The position numbers and the translations under genes were made by a program. A model generated the notes under the pieces. It was given only the letters and a program-made list of their open reading frames with translations. It had not been told where the DNA came from and ran no database searches. From Dawidia soli (GTDB lineage: Bacteria; Bacteroidota; Bacteroidia; Cytophagales; Cyclobacteriaceae), in the NCBI RefSeq assembly GCF_018598185.1, contig NZ_JAHESC010000059.1, forward strand, positions 1-37,139: a stretch of 37,139 nt of DNA, written 5' to 3'. The stretch's first letter is position 1. Every line of letters begins with the position of its first letter. Of this stretch, positions 9,487 to 33,442 are shown piece after piece.

Positions 9487-9525
9487 CGGCCCACATAAAC
9501 CTGCTTGTGGCCGGACGTTTTATTT
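9487..9525 (+). terminator. Likely terminator of the kinase-regulator operon
   Basis: CGGCCCAC (9487-9494) pairs with GTGGCCG (9507-9513), with one bulged C, and is followed shortly by TTTTATTT (9518-9525). It lies 25 bases after the LytTR stop. Stem and T-run fit a rho-independent terminator. Confidence 0.5.
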
Positions 9526-9579
9526 CCTAGATTAGGATAACGTTCCGGATCCATTCTCTTCACCAAAATCTGAAAGTTC

Positions 9580-15762: not shown

Positions 15763-15872
15763 GACGTGTATTCCCGTTAAACTTAGCCAATGCTTTTTAC
15801 AATTTGCAGCGGACGTAAGAAACCGATGCATATTGATAGTTCCTGCTCTGAAACAGCGCGGAGAAGGTGCTA

Positions 15873-15938
15873 CTATTGTATAAATCAGAAGATTGAAGAA
15901 GTGTTGAGCCGGTACTGCTATTGTATAAATCAGAAGAT
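15873..15938. repeat. 21-bp direct repeat, two copies 45 bp apart
   Basis: CTATTGTATAAATCAGAAGA plus a following T occurs exactly at 15873-15893 and again at 15918-15938. Copies start 45 bases apart. They lie upstream of the LRR gene start (minus strand) and beside the M23 pseudogene. They could be a short tandem duplication or a pair of binding sites. Confidence 0.75.
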
Positions 15939-15967
15939 CGGAAATAACCTGCGCACGAGCCCTTCAC

Positions 15968-16534: not shown

Positions 16535-16776
16535 AGAGAGGGATGGGTGTACGGGCGTAGGGTTCTTCTTTTTAGAAACTTCAAAGGCGATTAATACAAC
16601 TCAGCAACCAAACGCAACCGTTAAAGAAGATTCCAGATAAAATTCCTTTCATGTTTCGAATCATATATTTACTTTCCACACGCCTCTGCCGGAGTTGTAA
16701 TTACGTGCGGTTGTAAAAAGATCCAGTCGGTGCGTGCAGAGGTTGCGGTCAACCCATGGAACATTTTATTTAAGAT

Positions 16777-18585
16777 ATGCAGGAACTACAATTATCCCCG
16801 GGGGCCTGGGGCAGGCTGATCTTCCGAAGTGTAACCGGTATGGGTGTAGGCTTATTGATCTTACTGTGCACCCGGTGTTCGCCGGGCGATAGGAAAGTCC
16901 CACCTCCCCCGGATGATCCGAAAGCCTCGCTTCCCCCCGGTGATGCTGACAAAGGAAAGCTTGCCCTGGCCGACGGTTTCGAGGCTTTGGTGGTGGTAGA
17001 CAGCGTGGGCAGGGCACGACACCTGGCCGTGAACGACAACGGCGACATCTATGTGAAGCTCCGTGCCGTCACACCCCGGGGTGGATCGGTGGCTCTTCGT
17101 GATACGACCGGCGACGGCAAAGCGGATCTCGTAAAATACTTCGGTACGTACAAAGACCCGAGCGCATACGGCACCGGTATGCGTATATACAATGGCTATA
17201 TCTATTACGCGTCTACCGGCGTCGTATACCGCAGCAAGCTCGTGCCCGGCCAGCTGCTGCCCGATACTGTAGAAGAGCCGATCGTGATCGACGATGCGTA
17301 CAGGGCCAATCCCCGTGGAACCGAGCATATTACCAAATCGATCACGTTCGACGACAAGGGGCACCTCTATGTTCCCTTCGGCGCTCCCGGCGACGTGTGC
17401 CAGGCAGAGAACAGAACCCCTGGCGCGCCCGGTATGCTTCCCTGCCCGCAGCTCGACATCCACGGCGGTGTCTGGCAATTCGACGCCAACAAGCCCGGTC
17501 AGGTACAGGGTGATGGAAAAAAATATGCTACCGGCATGCGAAGCCTGGTGGCGATGGCCTGGAATTTCGAAGACGGCAATCTGTTCGCCGTGCAACACGG
17601 GCGCGATGATTTTGCCAGGACGTGGCCGGGGCTTTACTCTCCCTGGCAGAGCGCGCTGCTTCCGTCAGAGGAGTTCTTCCGGATCACCGAAGGCACCAAC
17701 GGCGGCTGGCCCTACTATTATTTCGATCAGATGCAGGATAAGAAAGTGCTGAACCCGGAGTACGGCGGCGACGGCAGAAAAGCCGACGGTGCCGACACGG
17801 TCGCACTACCGCTCATCGGTTTTCCCGGCCACTTTTCACCCAATGACCTGCTTTTCTACCGCGGCGACCAGTTTCCCGCACGCTATAAGAACGGCGCATT
17901 CATCGCCTTTCACGGTTCGACCATACGGGCGCCCTATCCGCAAGGGGGATACTTCGTAGCATTTGTGCCCATGAAGGGGGGGAAACCCACAGGTCCATGG
18001 GAAGTGTTTGCCGATGGCTTTGCGCAGCTGGATACGATCGTCAATACGTCCGACGCCAAGGCGCGGCCCATGGGGCTTTCCGAAGGACCTGACGGCTCGC
18101 TGTATGTGACCGAAAGCGTGAAAGGAAAGATCTGGAGGATCATGTTCAAGGGCGACAAGGCAGCCTTTGGCGAGCAGCAGCTGGCCGGAATGGAAACCCG
18201 GAAACAAACAGCCACCAATATCAAGCAGCCCGATGAGAAGAAAGACAACCTGTTCAAGGATACACCCGGCTCCGTCGCCTACACCCAGTACTGTGCTTCC
18301 TGCCACCTGCCCGGCGGCCAGGGCGATGGCAACCGGTATCCACCGCTGTTCGGTTCAAAATGGGTAAGCGGCCCGAGCAAGACGCTGATCGAAGTCGTAC
18401 TGAAAGGACTGACCGGCCCGATAGAGGTCCGGGGAAAGACATACGATGGCGTCATGCCCGCACATGCGTTCCTTTCCGACGAGCAGGTGGCCGATATCCT
18501 CACCTACGTGCGTACACGAATGACCCACGGAAGCTCGGCGATCAAGGCAGACGAGGTGCGCGCCGTGCGTGCGGGGCTGAAATAG
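16777..18585 (+). CDS. L-sorbosone-dehydrogenase-like propeller with fused cytochrome c, lipoprotein
   Basis: The protein has 602 residues. The N-terminus carries a lipoprotein-type signal (GMGVGLLILLCTRC), predicting lipid anchoring outside the cytoplasm; a later start near 16840 would also keep it. Residues about 60-470 form a PQQ-type sugar/sorbosone dehydrogenase beta-propeller (GFEALVVVDSVGRARHLAV, GNLFAVQHGRDDF, TEGTNGGWPYYYFDQ, GLSEGPDGSLYVTES). Residues about 495-590 are a mono-haem cytochrome c with CASCH (Cys506, Cys509, His510) and a probable axial Met560 in GVMPAHAF. The domains in one chain suggest sugar or aldose-derivative oxidation with electrons passed directly to the haem. 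The gene is monocistronic and faces the small lipoprotein gene. The family call is firm; substrate and cofactor are inferred. Confidence 0.88.
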   Translation: MQELQLSPGAWGRLIFRSVTGMGVGLLILLCTRCSPGDRKVPPPPDDPKASLPPGDADKGKLALADGFEALVVVDSVGRARHLAVNDNGDIYVKLRAVTPRGGSVALRDTTGDGKADLVKYFGTYKDPSAYGTGMRIYNGYIYYASTGVVYRSKLVPGQLLPDTVEEPIVIDDAYRANPRGTEHITKSITFDDKGHLYVPFGAPGDVCQAENRTPGAPGMLPCPQLDIHGGVWQFDANKPGQVQGDGKKYATGMRSLVAMAWNFEDGNLFAVQHGRDDFARTWPGLYSPWQSALLPSEEFFRITEGTNGGWPYYYFDQMQDKKVLNPEYGGDGRKADGADTVALPLIGFPGHFSPNDLLFYRGDQFPARYKNGAFIAFHGSTIRAPYPQGGYFVAFVPMKGGKPTGPWEVFADGFAQLDTIVNTSDAKARPMGLSEGPDGSLYVTESVKGKIWRIMFKGDKAAFGEQQLAGMETRKQTATNIKQPDEKKDNLFKDTPGSVAYTQYCASCHLPGGQGDGNRYPPLFGSKWVSGPSKTLIEVVLKGLTGPIEVRGKTYDGVMPAHAFLSDEQVADILTYVRTRMTHGSSAIKADEVRAVRAGLK

Positions 18586-19658: not shown

Positions 19659-20522
19659 TCAATGGCTATGATTGGACAAATAATGGCTGGCTCTGAAGTC
19701 CGTGGCCGTTACGCCGGTATGCTTCCGGAAGAACCGTGAAAAATAGGCGTGATCCGCATATCCGAGGTCAAAGGCGATCTGTTTGATATCCAGGACCGCA
19801 TACCGGAGCATGCGCTTGGCCTCCAACAGGATCTCCTGCTGGATCCAATAGCTCGCGGAAAAACCCGTAAGGTCTTTTACAACCTCATTCAGATAAAGTG
19901 GCGTGATATGGAGTAGTGCTGCATAATCCTGCACCTGCTTTTTTTCCTTGCAGTGTGCTTTTACCAGCTTTTTAAACCTGAGGACGGTATGATACTTCGG
20001 TCCACCGATGATGGCGACGGTATCTTTTGCCTCCGCGATCCTGGAAGCGACCATCCCCGCCAGTGTATCGACCAACGACCTGGACAACCGCTCGCGAAAC
20101 AACTGCGGCTCCCGGTCCAGCATTTCCACCAGCAACAGCGTTGTAGTAAAGACTGCATCGCCCTTTTTTAAAGGCACACCTTGTCCGGAATGAAGGTATG
20201 CGTCAAAGATTTCCCGATAGGTGCTATCGATCAGGTCCGGCGCCACAAAAACAAACCATCCTGCGGTACGGTGAAATGATACGTACCGATGCACTTGCCC
20301 GGGGATGACATAACTAAGGGAAGCATCTTTTAACACAACCTCCTGGAAATCGAATTCCCACACAAAACGTCCGTGCTGCTGGATGATAAACATATAATGA
20401 TCATCCCGGTGTGAATCCCGCACATTTTCCGTCAGGCTACTGAAAGGTGCAACGCTAATACCGATGCTTTTCAGTTCATTCTCATGGAGCGTGATCGCTT
20501 GTTTCTTCCGGGACATCGTCAT
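19659..20522 (-). CDS. AraC-family transcriptional regulator
   Basis: The protein has 287 residues. The N-terminal cupin-like sensor domain (about 20-150) includes DHYMFIIQQHGRF and SYVIPGQVHRYVSFH. The C-terminal AraC DNA-binding domain (about 185-283) has two helix-turn-helix units: VQDYAALLHITPLYLNEVVK and IKQIAFDLGYADHAYFSRFF, then the RKHTGVTATDFR end. Bacteroidota commonly place such regulators beside an MFS exporter, here reduced to its C-terminal half just downstream, so the regulator's original target may be gone. It also lies immediately downstream of the PUL on the same strand, so a PUL role cannot be excluded. Start 20522 or 20516 (MSRKKQ). Confidence 0.92.
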   Translation of the reverse strand: MTMSRKKQAITLHENELKSIGISVAPFSSLTENVRDSHRDDHYMFIIQQHGRFVWEFDFQEVVLKDASLSYVIPGQVHRYVSFHRTAGWFVFVAPDLIDSTYREIFDAYLHSGQGVPLKKGDAVFTTTLLLVEMLDREPQLFRERLSRSLVDTLAGMVASRIAEAKDTVAIIGGPKYHTVLRFKKLVKAHCKEKKQVQDYAALLHITPLYLNEVVKDLTGFSASYWIQQEILLEAKRMLRYAVLDIKQIAFDLGYADHAYFSRFFRKHTGVTATDFRASHYLSNHSH

Positions 20523-20609: not shown

Positions 20610-21761
20610 CTACCGGACGATTTCCAGTCCATCCTTCGAATGGATCTTCGGAAACGGCGCATGCGGCTCCGTTTGATACCAGAACGCCACGGAAGAAATA
20701 TCATCCTGTAACGGCAGGTAGCGGCCACCGCTGCGCCATCCCAGCGCCTGGATCGTAATCTTCAGATCCTTATTAAAACGAACGGGATCGGTGATATGCC
20801 ACCGGTACATCCCGAACATGGTCTGCGATTTGAACGCGCCGTCCGGTTTGAACACGTGGAAACCCGCGTACGAAGTTGAATAATCCTCATACTGCTGCTG
20901 GCCGTTCTTGTCCTTCACGGCAAACGCATAGGAGCCGCAGAAGTAGTCCTCCGTGCCCGTGCCACAGATCGTGGGGTATTGTGTGTCACCATCCATATAG
21001 AACTTGATCTCCCCTTCGCCCCACCAGCCATTGCTCTTGCTCTGCCACAGCATATACGTGCCGACATAATGCCCTTTACCCTTGATCCCGTCTACGATGG
21101 TATACACGTCCTTATACGGCACCGGGTTCACCCGGCGGAACTGCGCATGAAAATATGCGGCATCATCGGGCACGGTGGTGCGCGTGTAGTCGATCTGATA
21201 GTACAGGATCATTTCCTCATCGGCGACGTTTTCCAGGGTGATGCGGCACTTCTTTCGAAAGGGCATCGCCCAATAGCTGTTGAAGGCGCTACCAGGATTC
21301 ACGCACACCGCCAGCGACGAGATCGGCTTGTACTCATAGGCGGCGGCAAAGAAGTCGCCTACGGGCACCTCCACAGACGGCTCTTTCTCGTCGTCCCAAT
21401 ACATGCGAAGAATGCTGTAACGCCAGTTGCCCGTCGGCGTCATCCAGATGTGTTGTATGGCCCCTCCGCCCTCGATCTCGGCGAGTGTATAGGTGGTGTG
21501 CGCGGCAATGCGGATAAAGGGATTGACCTTCCATCCAGGGCCGAGATCTCGCGCAGGGCCCGAGGCCGTGCCTTCCTTCGCCATGCCGCCCTTGCCTTTC
21601 TCACCAGTAGGGTTCTCCGGACTGATCGACCGCGTCTGCGCATCCGAAAGCCTGTAGAGGTTATCCATGTTTGTGCCTATACCGTCAAAGCCCCCCTTTT
21701 GCGCAGCGGCCTCTAATGTCAGGAAGGCTGCCAGGAGGAAGAGAAATGCCCGTAGTCTCAT
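20610..21761 (-). CDS. GH172 (DUF2961) glycoside hydrolase
   Basis: The protein has 383 residues with a signal peptide (RLRAFLFLLAAFLTLEAAAQ), which sets the start at 21761. The DUF2961 fold, now family GH172, is seen in DNLYRLSDAQTRSISPENP near the mature N-terminus and in the beta-rich middle (GGGAIQHIWMTPTGNW, GSAFNSYWAMPF). The core motifs GEGEIKFYMDGD and GTGTEDYFCGS contain the conserved acidic residues that act in catalysis in characterised members. Known GH172 enzymes act on alpha-D-fructofuranosyl or alpha-D-arabinofuranosyl linkages, some as exo-D-arabinofuranosidases on mycobacterial arabinan. It is the last gene of the PUL, 57 bases after the esterase gene. Periplasmic location is likely. 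Confidence 0.9.
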   Translation of the reverse strand: MRLRAFLFLLAAFLTLEAAAQKGGFDGIGTNMDNLYRLSDAQTRSISPENPTGEKGKGGMAKEGTASGPARDLGPGWKVNPFIRIAAHTTYTLAEIEGGGAIQHIWMTPTGNWRYSILRMYWDDEKEPSVEVPVGDFFAAAYEYKPISSLAVCVNPGSAFNSYWAMPFRKKCRITLENVADEEMILYYQIDYTRTTVPDDAAYFHAQFRRVNPVPYKDVYTIVDGIKGKGHYVGTYMLWQSKSNGWWGEGEIKFYMDGDTQYPTICGTGTEDYFCGSYAFAVKDKNGQQQYEDYSTSYAGFHVFKPDGAFKSQTMFGMYRWHITDPVRFNKDLKITIQALGWRSGGRYLPLQDDISSVAFWYQTEPHAPFPKIHSKDGLEIVR

Positions 21762-21818
21762 CGTATTATGGTTGGTTGAATATCGAAGCATACTTTACAG
21801 TTTATAGTTTACCAAAAC

Positions 21819-23825
21819 TCAAAATCTCGGTTGTCCCGTCTGAAATCTCTTACCGGCTGTAATGCCCGGCCAGTCGTCGGTGCGGAAGGGTACGGCCGGA
21901 AGACCATCGGCGTTGTAAAGATCCAGCGGCCCGGGGTTGTCGTCCCACGCATAGCGCACCGCCACAGGCTTTGATACCTGGCGACACGTAACCTCCACCG
22001 TTCCGTTAACGAGCGTGGCCTGCGCCCAATAAAACTTCCTGTCCTCGCCGGCCATCTGGAATCCACGCACAAAGCCGTATTTGTCCTTTGTTATCAGACC
22101 ACCGCCAGTATTGTCGTATTCAATAGTCGCCGTACCACCGCCGAGCTTCATTGACCGGAACGTCGGTCCTGCGCTGACGATGTTCTTCTGGTATACTTTA
22201 TTTAGCGCACCGAGTGCCAGGCGCTTGCCGACATCTTCCTTGTTCCGGGGGTGAATGTCGTTCGCTTCACCCAGGTCGATGGACACGGCCATGGCGGTGT
22301 TGGGCAGGGCCAGCGCAGCCGCCTGCGCTTCCCTCAGTTCGGCCCAGGCACTCGGTGCCGGCAGCGGCGACTCCGCCATATAGTTAGCAAGCTGCACAAA
22401 GAGAAAAGGAAGCTCGGGCTGTTTCCATGTTGAACGCCAGTCTGCGATCATCGCGGGGAACAGCTTGCGGTATTCATCGGCACGATCGGCGTTGGCCTCT
22501 CCCTGATACCAAATTACGCCTTTGATGGACATGCGCGTGAGCGGCGCAATGCTCCCGTTGTATAACACAGCGGGCGAAGAAAAAGGTGTAGCATTGGGCA
22601 CCAGCACCTTCGGAAATTTTGCAGCATCGATAGCCTGGCCTTTCCTGTACAGCCAGTCACCCGATAGATGTTTGTGCGCCCACATGGAAGGTGTGGTGAA
22701 CCCACCCCTGCCCCCGACGTCAAAGACACGTACCACCAGCACGTTGCCCGTAGGCTTCAAAATGTCTGTCGGCACGTCGTAACCATGATGATTGTAGTTG
22801 CCGTAGCTCTCGCCCACTTTTACACCGTTCACCCAGGCGATGTCGTAGTCGTCGACCTGCAGCAGCCCCACATGAAATGTTTTGCCCGTATGGTTTTCCG
22901 GCAGGTCGAACGTTGTCCTGAACCATACGGCACCGTCGTGGTCACGCAGGTCGGGTACATTTTCCCAGGTGTTGCCAAGGGGCTGGATCGGCTTCCATTC
23001 CGAAAGGTCGGTATCCACGTCGAACCATTCCCCCACGATGCCCGGCCCCTTGTAATAATACTTTTTATACCACGCGGGCTTCATTTTCTCAAAGTCGGCC
23101 CGCATCGCGGCGAAGTTCTTATTACGCTTCAGCACGGGCTCGATGTCGGCCCTGAACTGATCAAACGCCAGAAGCGCCTCGTTACTCATCCAGCTTTCAA
23201 CGCTGGTAGCCCCCAGGTTGTCGCTGACCAGGCCGATGGGCACGTTCAGTTCCCGGTACAGCTTCTTCCCGAAGTGATAGGCTACGGCCGAGAAATATTT
23301 TATATTCTCTTGGCTCAGCGTGTTCCATCCCGTTCCACCCTTGATATCTTCTGCCGGCAAATAATCGATATCGACATGCACGGTAAAGAGACGGACCTGT
23401 GCGTTCTTCAGAAAAGCGCTGTCTTTCTCGTCAAAGCCGGTCTGGTCTATTGTCCACTGCATGTTGGACTGCCCGCCGCAGATCCAGACATCGCCGATCA
23501 GAACATCCGACAACACAATAGTGTTTCTCCCCTCCACGGTTAACGTATAGGGCCCGCCGGCTTCCAGGGCCGGCAGCACGACGCTCCATGTACCCTGCTT
23601 GTTCGCGATCGCCGTAGCCGATTTCATCATGAGGGTGACAGCGACCTTTTCTCCCGGCGAAGCCCACCCCCACACGTTAACAGGGGCGCCTCGCTGAAGT
23701 ACCATGTGATCGCGAAAGATTGCAGGCAGCCTCACGTCGGCCATGGCTGCCGGAACCATGACCAGAAGGACCATACAAAAGATCAAGCCCCTGAAAGGCA
23801 TAACACCACCGCGCGTGCGCTTCAT
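21819..23825 (-). CDS. Sialate O-acetylesterase-type carbohydrate esterase with jelly-roll insert
   Basis: The protein has 668 residues with a signal peptide (FRGLIFCMVLLVMVPAAMA). The SGNH/SASA esterase core is split. Part one has the IFRDHMVLQRG opening, a beta-sandwich, and the nucleophile motif WICGGQSNM (Ser120). A galactose-binding-like jelly-roll insert follows (VWFRTTFDLPENHTGKTFHV, QVDDYDIAWVNGVKVGES). Then the second catalytic part has GVIWYQGEANAD and the Asp/His motif NDIHPRNKEDVGKRLALGAL. Such enzymes remove O-acetyl groups from sugars. In this PUL it should strip acyl decorations that would block the glycosidases; sialic acid itself is not implied. ATG 23825 leaves a 7-base gap to the upstream stop; an earlier start at 23846 would overlap it. 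Confidence 0.9.
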   Translation of the reverse strand: MKRTRGGVMPFRGLIFCMVLLVMVPAAMADVRLPAIFRDHMVLQRGAPVNVWGWASPGEKVAVTLMMKSATAIANKQGTWSVVLPALEAGGPYTLTVEGRNTIVLSDVLIGDVWICGGQSNMQWTIDQTGFDEKDSAFLKNAQVRLFTVHVDIDYLPAEDIKGGTGWNTLSQENIKYFSAVAYHFGKKLYRELNVPIGLVSDNLGATSVESWMSNEALLAFDQFRADIEPVLKRNKNFAAMRADFEKMKPAWYKKYYYKGPGIVGEWFDVDTDLSEWKPIQPLGNTWENVPDLRDHDGAVWFRTTFDLPENHTGKTFHVGLLQVDDYDIAWVNGVKVGESYGNYNHHGYDVPTDILKPTGNVLVVRVFDVGGRGGFTTPSMWAHKHLSGDWLYRKGQAIDAAKFPKVLVPNATPFSSPAVLYNGSIAPLTRMSIKGVIWYQGEANADRADEYRKLFPAMIADWRSTWKQPELPFLFVQLANYMAESPLPAPSAWAELREAQAAALALPNTAMAVSIDLGEANDIHPRNKEDVGKRLALGALNKVYQKNIVSAGPTFRSMKLGGGTATIEYDNTGGGLITKDKYGFVRGFQMAGEDRKFYWAQATLVNGTVEVTCRQVSKPVAVRYAWDDNPGPLDLYNADGLPAVPFRTDDWPGITAGKRFQTGQPRF

Positions 23826-23832
23826 GAACGGA

Positions 23833-25020
23833 TTATTTTCTGTCAAAGATCACTTTTATAAACCGGGGATGATAGAAGTTCGGAGTTTTCTTGAGCTGCT
23901 CCAGGAAGTTGAAGCTATTGATGTTATAGCTGATGAGCAGCTCTCCCGGCTTCGATAGCGCGGGGTGGGCCTTCGCATTATAGGTATAGATGTCTTTCTC
24001 CGTCAATTCGGAAGATGTATTCCAGATCACCTGGCGTCGTTCGAAAGGCCCCACCGGCGAAGGACCGATCTGCATACAGATTTCCGAAAAGATACCGCCG
24101 AGCTGATAGATCAGCGCGTACTGGCCGTTGCCGATGGCGGAGACGCTCATCTCGTTTGAAACACTGTCGGCCAGCGCGGCAGCAGCCTTCAGGTCCTTCG
24201 TCCATCCGTCGGATGTCCTGAACTCCCAGGACGAGAATGTTGCCAGCGTTCCCGCTGGGGTCCGCGCAGCGATCAGCTCCTTTGTCGGGCCGCGAACGCC
24301 ATAGATGTATAGATAACCATCCGGATCGGGAGCTCCCGACTCCCGGGTATTGGCATAGATGCCCGCCCCGAAGGCCGTCGCCGCCGGGTCGTCGCTGGGC
24401 GATACAAGGGGAAGGTCCACCTGCCTCGACTTTGTAAGATCCGTAGTATGCGGCGGATAGATCAGCAACGTTGTACCTACCTGGCGGAACGGGAACTTCG
24501 AACCGTCGTTGGTATTATGAATGAGGTAGCCGAAGATATACAGGCTGTCTCCCGCTTCATGATCCACCACGCCGTCGCCCAGCCAGTAGTAGTCGCCAGG
24601 CTGTGTCCGGGGCGTTGACGGCAGGAATACCGAGCTTGTATCGTCTCCCACGATGAACGTCGCATGGTCTTCCCGCGGCTCGTTCCCGCGCAGCAGCATC
24701 ACCGAATTATTGATCATGGCCATACCGGGCGCGCCGGATTGCCGGGGGTCGCCCGCCTCGCCGAACATGGTGTCGCTGAAAACGAAGAGCACGGTATCGC
24801 CCGACGCCCCGGCATCGTTCCCTTTCAAGGGAATGGAGTAGATGCCGTCGGCGCCGAACCATCCCCGTGACCGTGTGAACAACGCTGTCCATTCCGGTGC
24901 GGCCTGCACCGTATAGGTCACCTCGTGCAGTTCTTCTTTTTTCTGTTGACAGGACGTCAGTACACCGGCTGCGGCCAGCGCGATCAACACACAATAGGAA
25001 GCGATCTGTTTCATCATCAT
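23833..25020 (-). CDS. DUF5005/DUF4185-like beta-propeller lipoprotein, putative glycosidase
   Basis: The protein has 395 residues. The lipobox is in ALAAAGVLTSC, with a start at one of three consecutive ATGs (25020-25012). The body begins WTALFTRSRGWFGADGIYSI and continues with VLFVFSDTMFGE, NNSVMLLRGNEP, PGDYYWLGDGVVDHEAG and DSLYIFGYLIHN. These repeated strand-turn-strand units with acidic residues after aromatic strands resemble the five-bladed propeller glycosidases of the DUF5005/DUF4185 group. DUF4185 has since been recognised as an endo-D-arabinanase family (GH183). I place this protein near that group from memory, not by search. It is encoded between the lipocalin-like lipoprotein and the esterase with very short gaps, so it belongs to the PUL operon. 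Confidence 0.75.
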   Translation of the reverse strand: MMMKQIASYCVLIALAAAGVLTSCQQKKEELHEVTYTVQAAPEWTALFTRSRGWFGADGIYSIPLKGNDAGASGDTVLFVFSDTMFGEAGDPRQSGAPGMAMINNSVMLLRGNEPREDHATFIVGDDTSSVFLPSTPRTQPGDYYWLGDGVVDHEAGDSLYIFGYLIHNTNDGSKFPFRQVGTTLLIYPPHTTDLTKSRQVDLPLVSPSDDPAATAFGAGIYANTRESGAPDPDGYLYIYGVRGPTKELIAARTPAGTLATFSSWEFRTSDGWTKDLKAAAALADSVSNEMSVSAIGNGQYALIYQLGGIFSEICMQIGPSPVGPFERRQVIWNTSSELTEKDIYTYNAKAHPALSKPGELLISYNINSFNFLEQLKKTPNFYHPRFIKVIFDRK

Positions 25021-25033
25021 CAATTTACAGGTA

Positions 25034-25873
25034 CTATTTAGGAGCGGCAACGTATTTATAAATAAATACTTCGTCGTTCGTCTCTCCGGCCCACGAAAGG
25101 TCGATGTGGATCTCGAGCTCGAGCTTGTCGACGGTAAGCGTTTTCACGTTGAAGACATCGGTTGTAAACACATCGGGACTGAATATGCTGTGATATTTCA
25201 TCTCAAACGTGGTCTCGTCTTCTGAAAGGGCCCAGGTGTCGTAGTCGTTGAATTCTTCAAGCTCGCACCCGCCGGCGTGGCTCGTGCCATAGAAGGAGTC
25301 CATGAGACCGTCGGCATGGAACAGATAATAATTATCTTTTTCACACTCCCGGATGTCTTCCTTGTTCCCCTTGTTCACCCAGATCTTCGAGGTGAACATC
25401 CACTTCCTGCGCGAAAGGTTTATGCGCGGCGCGGCGGCCACCGCCAGCGTAAGATCGCTGTTCACCACATCGCCGGATGCCGTCTCCGCACGGAAGGCAA
25501 AGCCGATCAGCTGGTCAATGTCTTCTTCCCGGCCCACGTACCGGAAGGTATATTCGCCGCCCGGCGAAAGCGCCGCAGCGTCCACCGCGAGCATACCGTC
25601 GATGCCGTAACCCCCGTCCACGGTCAGGTTTACGGACTTCGTAATGGTCAGCGCGCGCACGTCCGGAGGTAGCATTACGGTGACCACCGCTTCGCTGCCC
25701 TCCCGCACCTGCGTGCGGTACTGACCGTACCCGGCAATCTTGATATTCTGTCCCGGAATAGTGAGCTCCAGGCCCGGCTTGTCCGAATTGGACTCATAGT
25801 CGTCTTCGCACGAAAGCGTGCCTGCACACGCCACCAGCATAAGACCGAAAAGATATTGACGAATGTTTTTCAT
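25034..25873 (-). CDS. PUL surface lipoprotein with lipocalin-like C-terminal domain
   Basis: The protein has 279 residues. The lipobox ends GTLSC and is followed by EDDYES, an acidic surface-export signal. The first 130 residues after the signal form a beta-sandwich-like module (SVNLTVDGGYGIDGML, GEYTFRYVGREEDIDQL). The last 120 residues, from RKWMFTSKIWVNKGNKEDI to the end, resemble the lipocalin-like domains (DUF5004/lipocalin_5 type) of Bacteroidota outer-membrane proteins: NYYLFHADGLMD, EDETTFEMKYH, VDKLELEIHIDL. Encoded directly after SusD (19-base gap), it takes the position of the SusE/F-type surface glycan-binding proteins. Binding of the target glycan is inferred from position. Start at 25873 preferred over 25885. 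Confidence 0.78.
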   Translation of the reverse strand: MKNIRQYLFGLMLVACAGTLSCEDDYESNSDKPGLELTIPGQNIKIAGYGQYRTQVREGSEAVVTVMLPPDVRALTITKSVNLTVDGGYGIDGMLAVDAAALSPGGEYTFRYVGREEDIDQLIGFAFRAETASGDVVNSDLTLAVAAAPRINLSRRKWMFTSKIWVNKGNKEDIRECEKDNYYLFHADGLMDSFYGTSHAGGCELEEFNDYDTWALSEDETTFEMKYHSIFSPDVFTTDVFNVKTLTVDKLELEIHIDLSWAGETNDEVFIYKYVAAPK

Positions 25874-25892
25874 CGCTTTATGCATTTACCGT

Positions 25893-27365
25893 CTAATAAT
25901 CGTTTTGAGGAAGGTTCACGTTCAGGTCGCGCTCGCGCTGTGGAATGGGGAACAAGTAATGGTTCGCCCGCGGCGTCACACCGGGTTTGGCCAGGGGTAC
26001 CAGGGTCTCCAGCTTCCCGGTGCGCACCAGGTCGAACCACCGGTGACCTTCTGCCGCCAGTTCTAGCCTGCGCTGCGCGAGTACTTCGTCGCGGAACTGT
26101 TCTGTGGTAAGACCCGAGACGTCGCCCTGGTTGGCGCGGTGGCGCACCATGTTGAGGTAGGTATAGGCGTCGGCCGTCGGGCCGTTTTCCTCGTTCAGCG
26201 CCTCCGCATACATCAGCAGCACGTCGGCATAGCGGATCACGGGAAAATCCTGGGCCGCTTTCGCATTGGTGAACTCCTCGGGGTTGGTGACGTCCCAATA
26301 CTTTCTGAAATAATATTTATCAAACGGAACATCGTAGGTCGTTCCCGCCACGGTCTCCTTGAACTCGTTGAAGACGGTTACAGAGTCACGCTCATCGTTT
26401 GTAGGGTATGCATCGACCAGGGCCTGCGTAGGCACCTGCCATCCCAGGGTGTTGTTGGTGATGCCCGCCTTCACCAGCGCATTGGGCAGCAGCCGTGTGT
26501 GAAATTGTCCGCTTTCCCAAAAGATGATCTTGCCGCCGGCATCGCCGAAGCCCACGCTGAAGATCGCTTCCTTGCCGCCGCGGTTCTGGATCTTGAATAC
26601 ATCCACATAGTCATCCCAGAGCTCGTAGTTTCCCGAGCCGATCACCTCCAGCGCCTTGGCTGCAGCCATTCCATATTCCTGACGGGTCAGATACACTTTC
26701 GCCAGCAGCGCTTTGGCCGCACCCTGCGTGGCTCTTCCCCGGCCCTCTGCCTGTTCTTCCGGAAGCCCTTCCGCGTCGGTCAGGTCGGCAATGATCTGGG
26801 TATAGATCTCGTTCACTTCCGCAACGTTGGGTTTTAACGGTTCCTCTATCTTCAGCAACAAGGGGATCTTTCCGAACATCCGCACCAGGTTGAAATACAA
26901 CAGGGCCCGAAGGAACTTCGCTTCGTTCACAAGCCGGGTCCTCAGCGTGGCATTCATGTCGATCGCGGGGATCTTCTCGATGGCGATGTTCGCCAGCGAG
27001 ACGGCCTTATAGTGCTGTTTCCAGACATCGGTCACGATTCCGTTCTGCGGCGAGTACGTGAAGTTCGAAAGCTGATCGGCATCGGTCATGCCCACCTGGT
27101 TGTTGAGCATCTCGTCAGAAGCCAGGCCCATCATGATCCAGAAGTTGCTGTGGTATACGCCGCCAAAAGTATCACCGCTCTGCGAGTTCAGGTGCCCGTA
27201 AATAGCGTTTACGGCCGACACGGCGTCTGCTTCGGTCTTATAGAAGTTCGATACCGCCACAAAGTTCTGCGGATCTTCTTCCAGAAAATCCTTGCATGAC
27301 GGGGCCAGGAACGCCAGCAGTAGCAACATGCCGGCGAGCTTTATATTTCGTTTCATGAATTTCAT
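25893..27365 (-). CDS. SusD/RagB-family nutrient-binding lipoprotein
   Basis: This is a 490-residue surface lipoprotein that forms the lid of the SusC transporter and captures glycan fragments. The lipobox is LLLAFLAPSC, followed by KDFLEEDPQNFVAVSNFYK, a classical SusD opening. The TPR-like helices include EADAVSAVNAIYGHLNSQ and LVNEAKFLRALLYFNLVRMF. The C-terminal part has PVIRYADVLLMYAEALNEEN and LAQRRLELAAEGHRWFDLVR, both hallmarks of the family. The gene follows SusC after about 20 bases. ATG 27365 or 27356 can start it; both keep the signal. Confidence 0.96.
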   Translation of the reverse strand: MKFMKRNIKLAGMLLLLAFLAPSCKDFLEEDPQNFVAVSNFYKTEADAVSAVNAIYGHLNSQSGDTFGGVYHSNFWIMMGLASDEMLNNQVGMTDADQLSNFTYSPQNGIVTDVWKQHYKAVSLANIAIEKIPAIDMNATLRTRLVNEAKFLRALLYFNLVRMFGKIPLLLKIEEPLKPNVAEVNEIYTQIIADLTDAEGLPEEQAEGRGRATQGAAKALLAKVYLTRQEYGMAAAKALEVIGSGNYELWDDYVDVFKIQNRGGKEAIFSVGFGDAGGKIIFWESGQFHTRLLPNALVKAGITNNTLGWQVPTQALVDAYPTNDERDSVTVFNEFKETVAGTTYDVPFDKYYFRKYWDVTNPEEFTNAKAAQDFPVIRYADVLLMYAEALNEENGPTADAYTYLNMVRHRANQGDVSGLTTEQFRDEVLAQRRLELAAEGHRWFDLVRTGKLETLVPLAKPGVTPRANHYLFPIPQRERDLNVNLPQNDY

Positions 27366-27385
27366 ATCTCAAATGGGGTAAGATG

Positions 27386-30300
27386 TTATAGGCCAATGTT
27401 CACTCCGACCAGGTAGGTCTTCGTCATCGGGTAGCGTCCCTGATCGACGCCGGGCATGGCCGTGGCGACGCCGTAGGAGCTTCCTTCCGGGTCATAGCCC
27501 GTGTACCGGGTGAACGTCGCCAGGTTGGTGGCGCTGACATAGAGGCGCAGTGTCTTCACGTTGGCCCGGCTCAGGATCGCCGAAGGAATGTTATAGCCGA
27601 GCGTAATGTTCTTGATACGCACGTACGACGCGTCTTCCACATACGCCGAAGAGAACGTGCCCACATCGATGGTGCGGTTCGCCAGGGCACGCGGATAACG
27701 GTTACCCGGGTGCTCCGGGGTCCAGCGATTCAATCCCGCCTCCGCGGAGATATTCTGCACGCCGCGGAAGTCTTCCAGCGCCAGCGCGTTGAAGTTCGCC
27801 ATCTTGTTGCCCTGCGATCCCTGGATGAACACGCTCAGGCTAAAGTTGCCGTATGACAGCGTATTGTTGAATCCCCAGGTGAAGTCCGGAAGCGCGTTAC
27901 CGAGGATCGTTCGGTCGTTCTCGTTGATCACCGTGTCGGGGGCGGACAGATTCCGGTACCGCCTGTCGCCGGCGCGGGCACGCGTAAGTTCGTTACCCGG
28001 AATGTTATGCTGCCCGTTGAGCACCGCCGCAGCTTCCGCTTCCTCGTCGGTCTGGAAAATGCCATCGAACTGCAGACCGTAAAAGGTACCCAACGGCTGA
28101 CCTTCCCGCAGGATCAGCCCCGAGCCCAGGTTCACGTCCTTCCCGTCTTCCGCCAACCGGGTGATCTTGTTGGTGTACGTGGAAAAGTTGATGGACGAGT
28201 TCCATTTCAGTTTGCCGGTGGTGTTTACGGTTCGAATGTCGATATCGAGCCCCCGGTTCGTCAGGTCGCCGATATTCAGGGTCGTGGCATCAAAGCCCGA
28301 GGTGAACGGTATGGGCGTGCTCAGCAGAAGGTCATAGGTATATTTCTGGTATACATCGGCCGTGAGCGTGATCCGGTCGTTCAGGAACCCGGCGTCGATA
28401 CCGATATCGAACTGGCGGGTGGTCTCCCACTTCAGGTTGGGATTGCTATAGGCCGTCGGTTGGCTACTGGAATAATAATCGACCGTGGCGCCGTGATTAA
28501 AGACACCCTCGCCGTATGCGCCCACCAGCGCGAGCGACTGGTACGAGTCGATCGCCTGGTTTCCGATGATCCCCAGGGAGGTGCGCAGCTTGAGTTCGGA
28601 TATAAACTCCACGGGCTTCATCCATTCCTCTTCCACGATCCGCCAGGCCAGGGCTGCCGACGGAAAGAACGCGTATTTGTTATTCGCGCCGAACTTCGAA
28701 GACCCGTCTACCCGGCCCGTAAGAGTAGCCAGGTACCGACGGTTGAACGAATACTGCACGCGGCCCAGATAGGACTGCATGGTCCACGTGGCCTCGCCTA
28801 CCACCGGGGGCTGGGGCTCGGCGGCACCGCGCAGGCTGTGGTATCCCAGGCGGGGATCGGAAATGCCGAACACATATCCGTTGAGCCGCTCGCTCTTGAA
28901 TCCCTGCAGGGTATAGCCCGCCACCGCCGTGATCGAATGTTTCGTAGCGATGGTCTTGTCGAAGGTGATCGTATTCTCGTTCAGCCACGTCGTGGCTTCG
29001 AGGGTCGCAACGCTTGCTTCGCCCTTGGAGCCGGCCGCCGATTTGAGGAAGTCGGGAGCGAACGCCCGGTCCCTGGACGAAATGCCGTCAATCCCAAAGG
29101 TGCTCTTGAGCTCCAGCGACGGCAGGATCTTGTAGCGCGCCTCTACGTTGCCGAGAATACGCTGGGTGGTGCTATAGGCCTTGTGCTCCTTCGCTTCGGC
29201 GACGGGGTTTCCAATGACGATGCCCCGGTCGTTCTCATAGGTATAGCCGCCTTTCACCGTAGGGTCATACACCGGTTGGATGGGGTTCATCCCCAGCGCA
29301 CCGCCGATCACACCCGGCGTGATCTGCTGCAGCCCGGTGTTCACCGAGTTACCCTTGGTATAGGCATAGGCGATGTTGGCCCCGATGCTGAGCTTTTTGG
29401 TCACCTCGGTCGTGACGTTCGAGCGAAAATTGTAACGCGAAAAGTCGGAGTTTATCACGATCCCCTGCTGGCCGAAATATCCGCCGGAAATGGTATACGT
29501 CACCTTGTCGCTTCCACCGGAAACACCCACCTGGTGACTCTGAATGGGCGCCGTGCGCAGCATCTCCTTTTGCCAGTCCGTGCCCTGGCCCAGGGTTGAG
29601 GGGTTGACATACTCGGCCTGCTGGCCACCGTTGATACGCGCTTCATTGACAAACTCGGCAAACTGCTGCGCATTGAGCACGTCGATATATTTTGACGGTT
29701 CTTGTACACCATAGTAGCTGTCGACCGTCACGGCACTCGTCCCCTTCCGCCCATGCTTGGTGGTGATCAGGACCACGCCGTTCGCGCCGCGCGCACCATA
29801 GATGGCCGTGGCCGAAGCGTCCTTCAGGATCTCAATGGACTCGATGTCATTGGGGTTGATGGCCGCCAGCGGACCGATGCGCGGCGCGCTGCCCACGGTG
29901 GCGTTGGTCACTTCTGCGGTGTTGCTGTTCACCAGCATACCGTCAATGACATAGAGCGGCTCATTTCCCGCCAGAATGGAGCTGATCCCGCGGATACGGA
30001 TAGACGCCTCGGCTCCGGGCGCACCCGATGTCTGCATCACCTGGACGCCCGCGGCCCTGCCTTGCAGTGCCTGGTCGAACGACGTAGTGGGCACCGCCGT
30101 GATCTCTTCTGCCTTCACCGATGCCACGGACCCGGTAAGGTCCGTTTTCTTTACCGTGCCGTATCCGATCACCACCACCTCCGACAACGTCTCGAGCGAC
30201 GGTGTCAGCGTAACGTTTACCGTCGTCTGCGTGCCCACGACGACTTCTTCCGGCGAAAAGCCGATGAACGAAAATACCAGCACCGCATCCGCACCGGCAC

Positions 30301-30523
30301 GAATGGTATAATTTCCGTCGGCATCCGTCACCGTGCCGATGCTGGAACCTTTTATCAGGACGCTGACACCCGGCAGCGATTCGCCCGACGAAGCGATCAC
30401 CTTTCCACGCACGGTCCGCTCCTGAACCATTCCTTCGGGAAATGCTTCCAGCGGGACGCCCAGCTCCACCGATAACAGCAGCAAGAGCCACCGGCATAAA
30501 TTGTGGTAAAACTTTCTATTCAT
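27386..30523 (-). CDS. SusC/RagA-family TonB-dependent outer-membrane transporter
   Basis: The protein has 1045 residues. A signal peptide (CRWLLLLLSVELGVPLEA) is followed by a carboxypeptidase-like regulatory domain, VRGKVIASSGESLPGVSVLI to VNVTLTPSLETLSEVVV. Then comes the TonB-box region VVVIGYGTVKKTDLTGSVAS, typical of the SusC class. The plug covers about 120-240 (GAPGAEASIRIRGISSILAG, ATAIYGARGANGVVLITTK). The 22-strand barrel runs to the C-terminal YLVGVNIGL. It imports oligosaccharides with SusD across the outer membrane, driven by TonB/ExbBD encoded elsewhere. The gene is preceded by a regulatory element at 30552-30576 shared with the region ahead of the GH92 gene, so it may have its own promoter as well as being transcribed with the upstream glycosidase. 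Confidence 0.97.
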   Translation of the reverse strand: MNRKFYHNLCRWLLLLLSVELGVPLEAFPEGMVQERTVRGKVIASSGESLPGVSVLIKGSSIGTVTDADGNYTIRAGADAVLVFSFIGFSPEEVVVGTQTTVNVTLTPSLETLSEVVVIGYGTVKKTDLTGSVASVKAEEITAVPTTSFDQALQGRAAGVQVMQTSGAPGAEASIRIRGISSILAGNEPLYVIDGMLVNSNTAEVTNATVGSAPRIGPLAAINPNDIESIEILKDASATAIYGARGANGVVLITTKHGRKGTSAVTVDSYYGVQEPSKYIDVLNAQQFAEFVNEARINGGQQAEYVNPSTLGQGTDWQKEMLRTAPIQSHQVGVSGGSDKVTYTISGGYFGQQGIVINSDFSRYNFRSNVTTEVTKKLSIGANIAYAYTKGNSVNTGLQQITPGVIGGALGMNPIQPVYDPTVKGGYTYENDRGIVIGNPVAEAKEHKAYSTTQRILGNVEARYKILPSLELKSTFGIDGISSRDRAFAPDFLKSAAGSKGEASVATLEATTWLNENTITFDKTIATKHSITAVAGYTLQGFKSERLNGYVFGISDPRLGYHSLRGAAEPQPPVVGEATWTMQSYLGRVQYSFNRRYLATLTGRVDGSSKFGANNKYAFFPSAALAWRIVEEEWMKPVEFISELKLRTSLGIIGNQAIDSYQSLALVGAYGEGVFNHGATVDYYSSSQPTAYSNPNLKWETTRQFDIGIDAGFLNDRITLTADVYQKYTYDLLLSTPIPFTSGFDATTLNIGDLTNRGLDIDIRTVNTTGKLKWNSSINFSTYTNKITRLAEDGKDVNLGSGLILREGQPLGTFYGLQFDGIFQTDEEAEAAAVLNGQHNIPGNELTRARAGDRRYRNLSAPDTVINENDRTILGNALPDFTWGFNNTLSYGNFSLSVFIQGSQGNKMANFNALALEDFRGVQNISAEAGLNRWTPEHPGNRYPRALANRTIDVGTFSSAYVEDASYVRIKNITLGYNIPSAILSRANVKTLRLYVSATNLATFTRYTGYDPEGSSYGVATAMPGVDQGRYPMTKTYLVGVNIGL

Positions 30524-30551
30524 AATTGATTGGTTAAGACGTTTTATATTG

Positions 30552-30576
30552 GGTTCACATAAAAATGTATACGTTC
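30552..30576 (-). promoter_or_regulatory. Shared 25-bp PUL element, SusC copy
   Basis: The plus strand begins GGTTCACATAAA and ends GTATACGTTC. It matches 20 of 25 positions, without gaps, of the element at 33418-33442 upstream of the GH92 gene. It ends 28 bases before the SusC ATG and includes TACATTTT on the minus strand, close to a -7 box. Likely a promoter or regulator site. Confidence 0.45.
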
Positions 30577-30577
30577 A

Positions 30578-33283
30578 CTACTCCGCTGTTCCCCAGGCCT
30601 GATTCGGTTTGTCACCCAGCCAGATCTCGAGCGCTCCCCCTTTTGCATAGTCCTCATGCGTAAACCAGAAGCGCTGCTGCGGCTTTCCGTTCAGCGATGC
30701 GTTTTGTATATACATATTCTCCGGAGCGTTGTTGTGCGTGGTGATCACGAACTGCTTTCCCCGGTAATACTTCGGATCGAGCTGAATGGTGATCTTGTCG
30801 AAAATAGGACTGGTGATATCGTACGTGGGAACAGCCGATGCATTGCCCTGAAGGCTGAACAACCCCATGGCCATCAGCGCGCTCACGCCGCCCATCTGCC
30901 CCTGGTCTTCGTCATGCCCGCCATAGCCAAGGTCGGGCGTTGTGCCGCCATAAGCTTGCTCTTTTACTCTTCTTACCCAGTATTGCGTAAGCCAGGGCTT
31001 GCCTGCGTAGTTGAACACGTGAGCGTTGGAACAACCAGGTTGATTGGCATAGCTCACATAGCCGTCGTTGTAGGCAAAGACAAAGTCGCTGGCGCTTGCC
31101 TGCTCAAAGGCATGGTTCAGCTTATGACAAAGGGTATCGTTCCCGCCCAGTAAGGCGGCAAGGCCCGGGATGTCGTGTGACACGCCCCATGTGGCCTGCC
31201 ACGCATTGGCTTCCACCCATCCCTGCCCGCTCAGCGGATCGCGATGTACAAAGTGTCCGTTGTCGTCTTTCGGGAACAGTAACTTCTGCTGGGGATCGTA
31301 GCACTTCTTCCATCCCTGCGCACGGTTCATAAAGAAAGTATAGTCTTTCTTCTTTCCGAGGCGCTGCGCCATCTGTGCGATGGCCCAATCCTGGAAGGCG
31401 GCCTCCACCGTAATGCCGGCGTTGTTGCGCCACCAGCCATTCTTCGTATAGAAGTTGATGTCCTCCGCAGACCCCAGCATGCCACCGGGAAGATGGTTGC
31501 GTTTCAGGATTTCGAAAGCGTGCCGGGGATCGGCCCTGGTAAGCATGCCCTTCATGTACGTGCTCACGATGAGGTTGGTGGTCGGGCAACTGGTCATGAT
31601 ATACGAATATCCACCGCCCGAAGGACCGCGGGGAAGTAAATAGCCATTGTCCGCATATTGCAGCATCGATGCCGATAGCTCATCCTGGACACCCGGCCAC
31701 GCCAGCCCCCACAGAATATTGAGGTTCCATTGCGACAGCCAGAAGGCATCGGAATTATACATGTTGTAGCGCAGACTGCCGTCGGCATTCCGGGGCAGGG
31801 TTTTGACCTTGAAAACGGACTCGGTAAATGTTCCTTCGCGCGTGCCCTGCGTACGGTCCGGATAATCGCCCGAAATGTCGTTGATCTTGTGCCGCCCCAG
31901 CAGCACGTGCCACAGGTCGGTATAGAATTTCACGCGCTGGTCCGTACGCCCACCCTGCACATCGATCTTTCCGAGCCACTCGTTCCACGTAGCCTTCGAC
32001 TCGTTGCGCACAGCGTCGAAATCCCAGCCCGCACATTCTTGCTGAAGATTGTTGCGGGCGTTATCGATGCTGGTATACGAAATACCGATCTTCATCTGCA
32101 CCACATCGCCCGCCTTCACCGCATACGCCGCGGACAAACCGAGGCTGTCGCCTTGAAGCGTGGTCACCTGCTGATGGTGCTCATTTCCGACCCAGCCGTT
32201 GAGCTGATCATACGGCTTGTCGAACTGCACCACGAAGAAGACCTTCACATCCCGGGGACCACCCCAGTAGCGTTTCACGGAGCTGAATGACCCTTCGAAC
32301 TCCGTGCGGCTGTTCTTCTTCACCGACGCGCCGGCCATCGTCGTCCCACAGAGATACCCGCCCAGGTTTGTGAGCAGTTGCGTCGGCTGGTCGGCCGTAA
32401 ACCTGAACCGGTAAAAGCTCACACGCTCCGTCGCCGTCAGCTCCACCCACGTGCGCGGATCCTGCAGGTATACCCGGTGGTAGCCGGGCTGAACAATTTC
32501 TTCCGCATGCGTAAAGCGCGATTTCCATGCCTGTTCACCCCGCGACGGGTTGACGTCCGCACGGGCCGGCATGATCTCGAGTCCCGACAGCATCCAGCAG
32601 GCGATCTGACCGAAGCCCAGAATGTGTGACTCGTTATAGTTGTAACCGCCGCCGCCCTGGTTCTTGTTGCGGGTATGCGGCGCCGCCCCCGTCATGCCAA
32701 AAGGCCGGCCGCCGGTAATAAAGAAAAAGTGGCGCCCCCGGTTCGTCTCGATATAAGGGTCCACCATCGATACGTAGTCGGTGAACTGATCGGCCGAAGG
32801 GAACACCTCGACCTCCGAGAATCCGAGGTCCCTGCCCGTACCATCCGTAACAACGATCTTCACCCATCGTATCGTTTTTGTCTCGAATTCCACCGCCCGG
32901 CCCGTACCGTCATTGGGGATCTGGTTCACCCAGAGCGTACTGCCGTCGCTGAAAAGCAGTTTGCAGGTGGCGATGTGGTTGCGCTGCGTCACCCGGTCGT
33001 ACAGCACGATACGGTTCACCTGCTGGGGTGACTGCCATGCCAGTTGAAGCCATGGAAAGCGTATATATCCCCAGTCGGTAGTGTCGCCCTGGCAGGCCCA
33101 TTCCCCCTGGCCGTCAATATGAATGATACCATCCACCACGTTGGACGGCTTGTACGTCTCGCCCCGGTACGTCGATGCGGTGACCGTAGCGTGCGGAGCG
33201 ATGCTGTCCGGCCCCGCCCAGGCTTTCAGCGTAAAAAAGAAAAGGAGGACGATCGAATGTGTCGAAAATTGAAAGATTCTCAT
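30578..33283 (-). CDS. GH92 exo-alpha-mannosidase with N-terminal F5/8C-like module
   Basis: The protein has 901 residues. The start at 33283 gives a signal peptide (MRIFQFSTHSIVLLFFFTLK, cleaved near AWA). Residues about 25-165 form a discoidin/F5/8 type C-like carbohydrate-binding module (YKPSNVVDGIIHIDGQGEW, RWVKIVVTDGTGRDLGFSEV). Residues 170-895 are the GH92 catalytic region: VDPYIETNRGRHFFFITGGR, SHILGFGQIACWMLSGLEIM, a helical middle with VEAAFQDWAIAQMAQRLGK, and the GYGGHDEDQGQMGG motif with the DED acidic group. GH92 enzymes are calcium-dependent, inverting exo-alpha-mannosidases, usually alpha-1,2. This one is a divergent member: the usual G-N-M at the front and SAW after the DED motif are not matched well. 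It lies 54 bases upstream of SusC on the same strand and is the first gene of the PUL. The upstream extension from 33364 is open but adds no recognisable signal. Confidence 0.85.
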   Translation of the reverse strand: MRIFQFSTHSIVLLFFFTLKAWAGPDSIAPHATVTASTYRGETYKPSNVVDGIIHIDGQGEWACQGDTTDWGYIRFPWLQLAWQSPQQVNRIVLYDRVTQRNHIATCKLLFSDGSTLWVNQIPNDGTGRAVEFETKTIRWVKIVVTDGTGRDLGFSEVEVFPSADQFTDYVSMVDPYIETNRGRHFFFITGGRPFGMTGAAPHTRNKNQGGGGYNYNESHILGFGQIACWMLSGLEIMPARADVNPSRGEQAWKSRFTHAEEIVQPGYHRVYLQDPRTWVELTATERVSFYRFRFTADQPTQLLTNLGGYLCGTTMAGASVKKNSRTEFEGSFSSVKRYWGGPRDVKVFFVVQFDKPYDQLNGWVGNEHHQQVTTLQGDSLGLSAAYAVKAGDVVQMKIGISYTSIDNARNNLQQECAGWDFDAVRNESKATWNEWLGKIDVQGGRTDQRVKFYTDLWHVLLGRHKINDISGDYPDRTQGTREGTFTESVFKVKTLPRNADGSLRYNMYNSDAFWLSQWNLNILWGLAWPGVQDELSASMLQYADNGYLLPRGPSGGGYSYIMTSCPTTNLIVSTYMKGMLTRADPRHAFEILKRNHLPGGMLGSAEDINFYTKNGWWRNNAGITVEAAFQDWAIAQMAQRLGKKKDYTFFMNRAQGWKKCYDPQQKLLFPKDDNGHFVHRDPLSGQGWVEANAWQATWGVSHDIPGLAALLGGNDTLCHKLNHAFEQASASDFVFAYNDGYVSYANQPGCSNAHVFNYAGKPWLTQYWVRRVKEQAYGGTTPDLGYGGHDEDQGQMGGVSALMAMGLFSLQGNASAVPTYDITSPIFDKITIQLDPKYYRGKQFVITTHNNAPENMYIQNASLNGKPQQRFWFTHEDYAKGGALEIWLGDKPNQAWGTAE

Positions 33284-33417
33284 GGTTGCCGTTATAAAGT
33301 AATTGACTCGTTTCCCTGCAAAGTCTTCAGCTGCTGATATCGGTGCCATGAAGGAGGTGTACATACATCGGGAGGATCGTCCCTGTCATTACCGGCCATT
33401 TCATAGGTTTGGTTTTT

Positions 33418-33442
33418 GGTTTACATAAATGTATATATGTTC
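33418..33442 (-). promoter_or_regulatory. Shared 25-bp PUL element, GH92 copy
   Basis: The plus strand begins GGTTTACATAAA and ends TATATGTTC, 20 of 25 identical to the SusC copy at 30552-30576. On the minus strand, TTG occurs 21 bases before TACATTTA inside the element, a fair Bacteroidota promoter. It is 134 bases ahead of the GH92 start at 33283 (53 before the open frame at 33364). Confidence 0.45.

Follow-up and report, generated by a model that had tools for sequence, protein, structure and literature searches.

A Dawidia soli polysaccharide utilization locus combining a GH92 mannosidase, a GH183-like propeller and GH172: a probable mannose-releasing system with a candidate furanosidase addition

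The stretch of DNA analyzed here (the window) comprises 37,139 nucleotides of Dawidia soli contig NZ_JAHESC010000059.1 (assembly GCF_018598185.1; contig C77 of a 7.48 Mb genome that is 98.5% complete), and contains seven minus-strand open frames (20610-33364) that encode a GH92 glycoside hydrolase, SusC, SusD, a lipocalin-like lipoprotein, a propeller lipoprotein, an SGNH esterase and a GH172 enzyme. These genes, separated by gaps of 54, 20, 7, -17, -14 and 27 bases, form one operon-like polysaccharide utilization locus (PUL), with an adjacent SusC/SusD pair in the company of glycan-active enzymes. An identical seven-gene set in the same order, with proteins that are 81-91% identical, exists in Parachryseolinea silvisoli (L034), the nearest named relative judged by the propeller (87% identity), and the other frames of that 21 kb stretch produced no match to frames of the window (BLAST E 1e-4). 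Because the same seven genes keep their order in P. silvisoli while the flanking frames are unmatched, the seven-gene unit is real and so are its boundaries. The initial annotation had described one PUL of seven short-gap minus-strand genes spanning 20610-33442; the grouping and the start agree with the frames, whereas the GH92 frame ends at 33364 and probably starts near 33283, judged against the 901-residue L034 frame. Its family names were borne out by Pfam and NCBIfam scans, in which GH92, SusC, SusD, Lipocalin_4, the SASA esterase and GH172 exceeded their cut-offs.

The GH92 protein (30578..33364) is an exo-α-mannosidase by family, with an N-terminal DUF7402/F5-F8 domain (PF07971, 395 bits against a cut-off of 24.6; PF17678, 168.8; PF24135, 94.1), and one of 12 GH92 matches in its own genome. 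The activity initially proposed for it is upheld by its catalytic residues, which include the acid Glu within WVEANAW and a base Asp within an Asp-Glu-Asp (DED) stretch. Its nearest structure is 6f8z (BT3130; E 2e-76), which is compared as an α-1,3-mannosidase in PMC9522356 (papers are cited by PMC number, and statements taken from them refer to excerpts of their text). A signal peptide without a lipobox was read by eye; all localization calls in this work derive from such reading and a lipobox pattern.

The next genes encode a SusC/RagA TonB-dependent transporter (27386..30523; TIGR04056, 942 bits in NCBIfam), a SusD lipoprotein (25893..27365; PF07980, 137 bits and PF14322, 85.9 in Pfam) and a lipocalin-like lipoprotein that is a probable surface glycan-binding protein (25034..25885; PF13648 Lipocalin_4, 23.6 bits against a cut-off of 22.4). 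The last of these has acidic residues behind its lipid cysteine (CEDDYES), a lipobox-like motif is found in 23 of its 24 relatives, and its predicted model is all-β, for which a structure search gave weak matches at best (E down to 2.7e-5; template modelling (TM) scores of ~0.3 or less over the full length, with some partial matches to 0.57). The esterase (21819..23846) is of the SGNH/SASA carbohydrate type (PF03629, 75.8 bits; nearest structure 9h4u, E 2e-151), carries an inserted GH2-type sugar-binding domain and contains the motifs GGQSNM at 124 and NDIHP at 529; it too appears to have a signal peptide and no lipobox.

The propeller lipoprotein (23833..25050) is a proposed glycosidase with a GH183-like fold. 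Its earlier description as DUF5005/DUF4185-like holds for the fold and the key carboxylates, but not for Pfam membership, since both scores fall just short (DUF4185, 33.6 bits, or 33.5 on a repeat scan, against 39.5; DUF5005, 29.2 against 29.6). An orthologue in genome G549 that is 40% identical scores 62.7 bits for DUF4185, over the cut-off, and its PUL (L179) also contains GH92, porter and isomerase genes; judged by these scores the clade straddles the family line and appears borderline rather than outside. A single-sequence search of the Protein Data Bank (PDB) found BACOVA_04882 (4hbs, a putative hydrolase) at E 3e-11 and the endo-D-arabinanase-family enzyme EndoMA1 at E 0.008, and a profile of 65 propeller sequences found the same two at E 3e-23 and 4e-10. 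The AlphaFold model (mean predicted local distance difference test score, 90.3) likewise matched 4hbs first in Foldseek (E 2.5e-21), yet the two are only ~20% identical in the structural alignment. EndoMA1 came next (E 2e-14, TM 0.55, root mean square deviation 6.5), so the comparison with GH183 that had been suggested as a check gave a positive result, and AraH2 stood at rank 8 (3e-6) amid sialidases and other propellers. The model is a β-propeller of the EndoMA1 type, the blade number of five being that of EndoMA1 and not a count made in the window model.

Residues D33, D51 and E243 are essential in EndoMA1 (PMC10509167). E243 aligns with E300 of the window propeller, and motif order together with 4hbs suggests that D68 and D93 correspond to D33 and D51, so that the GH183 Asp, Asp, Glu triad appears to be present. 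D68, D93 and K257 are conserved in 65/65 aligned rows and E300 in 64/65, and a lipobox-like motif occurs in the frames of 58 of 93 relatives. The protein thus looks like a GH183-fold enzyme. The GH183 members characterized in PMC10115798 and PMC10509167 are endo-D-arabinanases. One explanation is that the PUL targets arabinomannan or lipoarabinomannan (LAM) of actinobacteria, in which case the propeller would be an endo-D-arabinanase, GH172 an exo-α-D-arabinofuranosidase and GH92 a mannosidase. The Foldseek matches to EndoMA1 and AraH2, the retained carboxylates, the G549 orthologue that lies within a mannose-type PUL and is over the DUF4185 cut-off, the closeness of GH172 to ExoMA1 and the presence of GH92 all argue for this explanation, which we nevertheless consider doubtful because of the genomic company that the propeller keeps.

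Confirmed propeller relatives in the species-genome collection numbered 199, and 80 of their loci were compared, with locus genes defined as open frames named by BLAST to proteins of the window, L023 or L026, so that diverged copies count as absent. Near the propeller were SusC (56 of 80 loci), SusD (50), GH92 (40), an isomerase (34), a sugar porter (28), a GntR regulator (26), the lipocalin-like gene (24), the esterase (23) and a ROK kinase (22), and GH172 was found in a single locus, that of P. silvisoli. GH92 or the isomerase accompanies the propeller in 57/80 loci (both in 17/80), in 47 of the 58 loci with full flanks, and in all 24 loci with the lipocalin-like gene (the isomerase in 21/24); remoter loci hold GH2-type, GH38 or GH29 genes. 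Orthologous PULs with the gene order GH92-SusC-SusD-lipocalin-like-propeller-MFS porter-ROK-isomerase-SASA-GntR were identified at L035, L036, L063, L067 and L068, and also at L045, where ROK went undetected. They belong to Chryseolinea, Agaribacillus, Sinomicrobium, Gramella and Chryseosolibacter; GH172 is absent from them, and ROK is present in all except Chryseosolibacter. Because GH92 or the isomerase lies near 57 of 80 propellers and GH172 near one, mannose release is the most likely function of the core system, with GH172 as a lineage-specific addition. The added enzyme probably removes α-D-arabinofuranose or a related furanose. The 79 propeller loci without GH172 also weigh against the arabinomannan explanation. 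The initial proposal of a D-arabinan/mannan degrader therefore stands on its mannose side, but is not supported where it makes the whole PUL a D-arabinan degrader.

Within the order, propeller relatives were found in 12 of 291 genomes, that of the window included (E 1e-10 or better); eight of the 11 others have a relative with at least 39% identity and three a weaker one (28-34%). None of these 11 genomes gave a DUF2961 (GH172) match, and 14 control genomes were also silent, although two loci in the window's own genome, the window copy among them, are detected with this model. The isomerase takes its name from two mannose-6-phosphate isomerases in the PDB (E 7e-9 and 3e-8), Pfam and NCBIfam scans leaving it unnamed. 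It gave a single match per genome in 14 of 16 genomes, at least four of which were picked after the pairing had been seen, and lies inside the propeller locus in 12 of these 14, the exceptions being P. silvisoli and G004. The isomerase-like protein itself (L023 5620-7371 and orthologues) is ~583 residues long, with the mannose-6-phosphate isomerase match confined to its later part and no match for its first ~240 residues in Pfam, NCBIfam or PDB scans. One further locus (L180, in G547) contains two propellers (8564-9640 and 15314-17251), one of them a DUF4185 member at 103.6 bits, and in addition GH38, an isomerase-like gene and ROK.

In LAM, the mannose of side chains and caps is α-1,2-linked. 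In GH92 enzymes, the His-Glu pair of the 580 loop (H584 and E585 of BT3990) confers α-1,2 specificity (PMC5930347; PMC12858847), and the alignment with 2wvx places a gap at this loop in the window GH92. The absence of this loop counts against the LAM or arabinomannan target named in the initial annotation, which keeps a place only as a possible substrate. In an alignment of 15 GH92 rows (at least 55% identity and more than 700 residues; L035 and L045 were left out as too short at the locus edge), a different loop reads YANQPGCSN in 14 and YANQPGCSD in one, so YANQPGCS is invariant, including in the two rows that are accompanied by GH172. Because this loop is kept in orthologues with and without GH172, the mannoside recognized is probably the same in both.

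Phylogenetic analysis of 94 propellers paired the window sequence with that of P. silvisoli (support 100/100) and joined this pair to Chryseolinea serpens and Chryseosolibacter (95/90), whose PULs both hold porter, isomerase, esterase and GntR genes. Because these sister PULs possess the porter and isomerase and lack GH172, the pattern suggests that this lineage most likely lost the mannose-use genes from the PUL and gained GH172. Over the part compared, GH92 is 77-78% identical within the window, Chryseolinea and Chryseosolibacter group, whereas for the propeller the identity is 49% between the window and Chryseosolibacter and 61% between the two sister sequences; a propeller that is more diverged here, where GH92 is 78% in both comparisons, would fit a change of substrate and is a further point in favor of arabinomannan. 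An isomerase and a porter are encoded on contig C78 of the window's own genome together with SusC, SusD, two GH92 genes, GH38 and a sulfatase, and in P. silvisoli they also adjoin two GH92 genes. A second propeller PUL of the window's own genome (G000), at L029 (contig C56, ~186001-206000), contains a distant propeller, two SusC genes, one SusD, GH92 genes, GH38, and GDSL and SASA esterases.

The GH172 protein (20610..21791) belongs to DUF2961 (306.7 bits against a Pfam cut-off of 27) and appears to be of the exo-α-D-arabinofuranosidase type, as the initial annotation had suggested, its best PDB match over residues 42-391 being 8ic8 (E 1e-117), which was taken as ExoMA1 of PMC10509167 by residue numbering. 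Both catalytic glutamates of ExoMA1 are shared, as E259 and E281 (Glu270 and Glu291 of the difructose dianhydride enzyme αFFase1), and Glu occupies both positions in 19/19 aligned rows. An apparent signal peptide, with no lipobox, was read by eye, in contrast to ExoMA1, which lacks a signal sequence (PMC10509167). The position of Asn253, the residue reported to block fructose in ExoMA1 (PMC10509167), is also different, being Ala289 in the window protein and Ala in P. silvisoli; across 19 close GH172 rows, from which the paralogue at L157 5698-6876 (34%) was excluded, it is N in 10, D in six, A in two and G in one. The window GH172 thus carries an unusual active-site change.

This change raises the possibility that GH172 is an α-D-fructofuranosidase or a relaxed α-furanosidase, and that the PUL acts on a mannose glycan decorated with fructofuranose-like or other furanose residues. 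Ala289 at the fructose-blocking position would allow this, and the missing fucose isomerase match in the own genome is compatible with it; however, the protein is far closer to ExoMA1 than to αFFase1 (7v1v; E 3e-39), and part of the close GH172 clade is tied to fucose-isomerase-type catabolism, so we regard such an enzyme as unlikely. ExoMA1 and DgGH172a fall in a clade separate from the fructosidase (PMC10509167). On the same E values, a fructan PUL, which had been offered as an alternative main target, was rejected as such, the fructofuranosidase being kept as a rival on account of Ala289.

Close GH172 relatives (60-70% identity) were found in 16 further genomes among 395 searched across the phylum, and a plasmid search gave 130 records, of which two, at 60-80% identity, were inspected for context. 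The neighborhoods in the 16 genomes and on a Parabacteroides plasmid form a contrast set, in which GH92 or a propeller match occurs in 0/17, GH92 or the isomerase in 0/17, a fucose-isomerase cluster member in 3/17 (the cluster being named from its one scanned member) and a DUF6786 cluster member, likewise named from a scanned member, in 6/17 (L145, L148, L149, L152, L157 and L158). Because of these fucose isomerase neighbors, and because fucose isomerase is abundant during growth of Dysgonomonas gadei on D-arabinan (PMC10115798), part of the close GH172 clade would, by analogy, fit release of D-arabinose. The DUF6786 cluster may represent a gene that helps to use the furanose released by GH172; a search for it gave no match in the window's own genome, and control genomes were likewise silent. 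As regards galactofuranose as a possible target, the GH172 enzymes assayed in PMC10115798 are reported to have no activity on galactan. More widely, GH172 matches occurred in 26 genomes, seven of which had a DUF4185-type match as well, and in G549 a locus with GH172 and fucose isomerase (L157) is separate from the orthologous mannose-type PUL (L179).

The rarity of the combination (one of 80 propeller loci, none of 17 GH172 neighborhoods) and the position of GH172 as the last gene of the operon could also mean that it is a passenger, a recent neighbor of a mannoside PUL with no role on the same glycan. We consider this very unlikely, as only 27 bases separate it from the esterase gene, its catalytic residues are intact, and P. 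silvisoli retains it (90% identity) despite having different flanks.

Some other GH172 and DUF4185 genes were observed in different settings. On G000 contig C43 (L031, ~64000-66000), another GH172 frame, which contains two DUF2961 stretches and shares 24% identity with that of the window, lies beside SusC/SusD. The Parabacteroides distasonis plasmid (L159 12134-16119) has a close GH172 relative next to SusC/D, GH140 and a gene related to GH28, a setting that might indicate another furanose, for example apiose. G000 contig C44 (L177, 4635-6275) encodes a protein that exceeds the Pfam cut-off for DUF4185; the surrounding frames include a CBM6 protein and an amine oxidase, and gave no SusC or SusD match.

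Among known systems, the PUL resembles D. gadei PUL42 and the Microbacterium arabinogalactanolyticum clusters, as excerpted in PMC10115798 and PMC10509167, in having an ExoMA1-type GH172 together with a GH183-fold propeller, but it has one GH172, adds GH92 and an esterase, and its propeller lies just under the DUF4185 cut-off in a clade that is often linked to mannose-use genes. The D-arabinan clusters unite GH172, GH183, GH116 and D-arabinose-use genes, and this set is incomplete here: searches of the own genome gave no match to GH116 or fucose isomerase, for both of which some control genomes were positive. Because of these two results, the full known D-arabinan pathway is unlikely to be present in this genome, which again disfavors the arabinomannan explanation. 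With Bacteroidota α-mannan and N-glycan PULs (GH92, GH38 and others), the locus has SusC/D with GH92 in common, and some propeller relatives adjoin GH92, GH38, GH2-type or GH29 genes; it differs in its GH183-fold propeller, in relatives whose loci include genes for a porter, a ROK kinase and an isomerase, and in having no GH76, GH99 or GH18 among the seven proteins by Pfam.

The explanation that we favor, with confidence a little above even, is that the PUL serves to degrade a glycan that contains mannose and is probably O-acylated, and that the newly added GH172 removes terminal α-D-arabinofuranose or a close furanoside. The gene set, the families, the conserved catalytic residues, the orthology to PULs with mannose-use genes and the rarity of GH172 in such company are observed; the localizations, the order of steps, the acyl groups, the action of the propeller on the mannoside and the furanoside removed by GH172 are proposed. 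The glycan would be captured at the surface by the lipocalin-like lipoprotein and SusD, and the propeller lipoprotein, as a GH183-fold retaining glycosidase acting on a mannoside, would make the first cuts. SusC would bring the fragments into the periplasm, where the SGNH esterase may remove acyl groups, GH92 terminal α-mannose, and GH172 terminal α-D-arabinofuranose or a close furanoside. Mannose would then be taken up and used via the porter and isomerase encoded at the separate locus of the same genome.

Several observations weigh against this explanation. Neither GH92 nor the isomerase is present in 11 of the 58 full-flank propeller loci, including loci of Pedobacter and Chitinophaga, and one locus of this type has a tricorn-like protease beside the propeller. 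The ROK kinases score under a curated glucokinase cut-off, and none was seen at the C78 locus of the own genome, in which no genome-wide ROK search was made. Pfam found no endo-mannanase of a known family among the seven proteins, the lack of a fucose isomerase match means that no D-arabinose route was found, and the literature excerpts contained no activity for the propeller clade. Searches of open-licence papers, with PMC11748540 (which contains the terms GH92, GH172 and PUL) left aside, brought up nothing that connects this clade to mannose or describes this gene set, and the excerpt of PMC11233589 (LamH) contained no PUL useful for comparison.

A broader proposal, which we put forward tentatively and at somewhat less than even confidence, is that the propeller clade of many Bacteroidota consists of uncharacterized GH183-fold glycosidases, with the GH183 carboxylates, that cut a mannoside glycan instead of D-arabinan. 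In the Parachryseolinea-like lineage, this propeller and an acquired GH172 would together have been adapted to a mannan bearing D-arabinofuranose. If so, "D-arabinanase" labels would mislead for a wide clade that retains these carboxylates and often accompanies GH92 and mannose-use genes, and the clade could be tested for a missing step in the breakdown of mannoside glycans. The addition of GH172 also provides a natural case in which to study how new side-chain specificities enter a PUL.

Outside the PUL, a gene for an AraC-family regulator lies 87 bases downstream on the same strand (19659..20522). Its membership is doubtful, and it was rejected as the PUL regulator since the P. silvisoli stretch has no relative of it. 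Promoter and terminator scans returned numbers near those expected from shuffling (11 against 8.6 and 14 against 12.9) and were not used. Further along the window, positions 12832-15831 encode a 999-residue leucine-rich-repeat protein with a weak match, below the cut-off, to a Por secretion tail.

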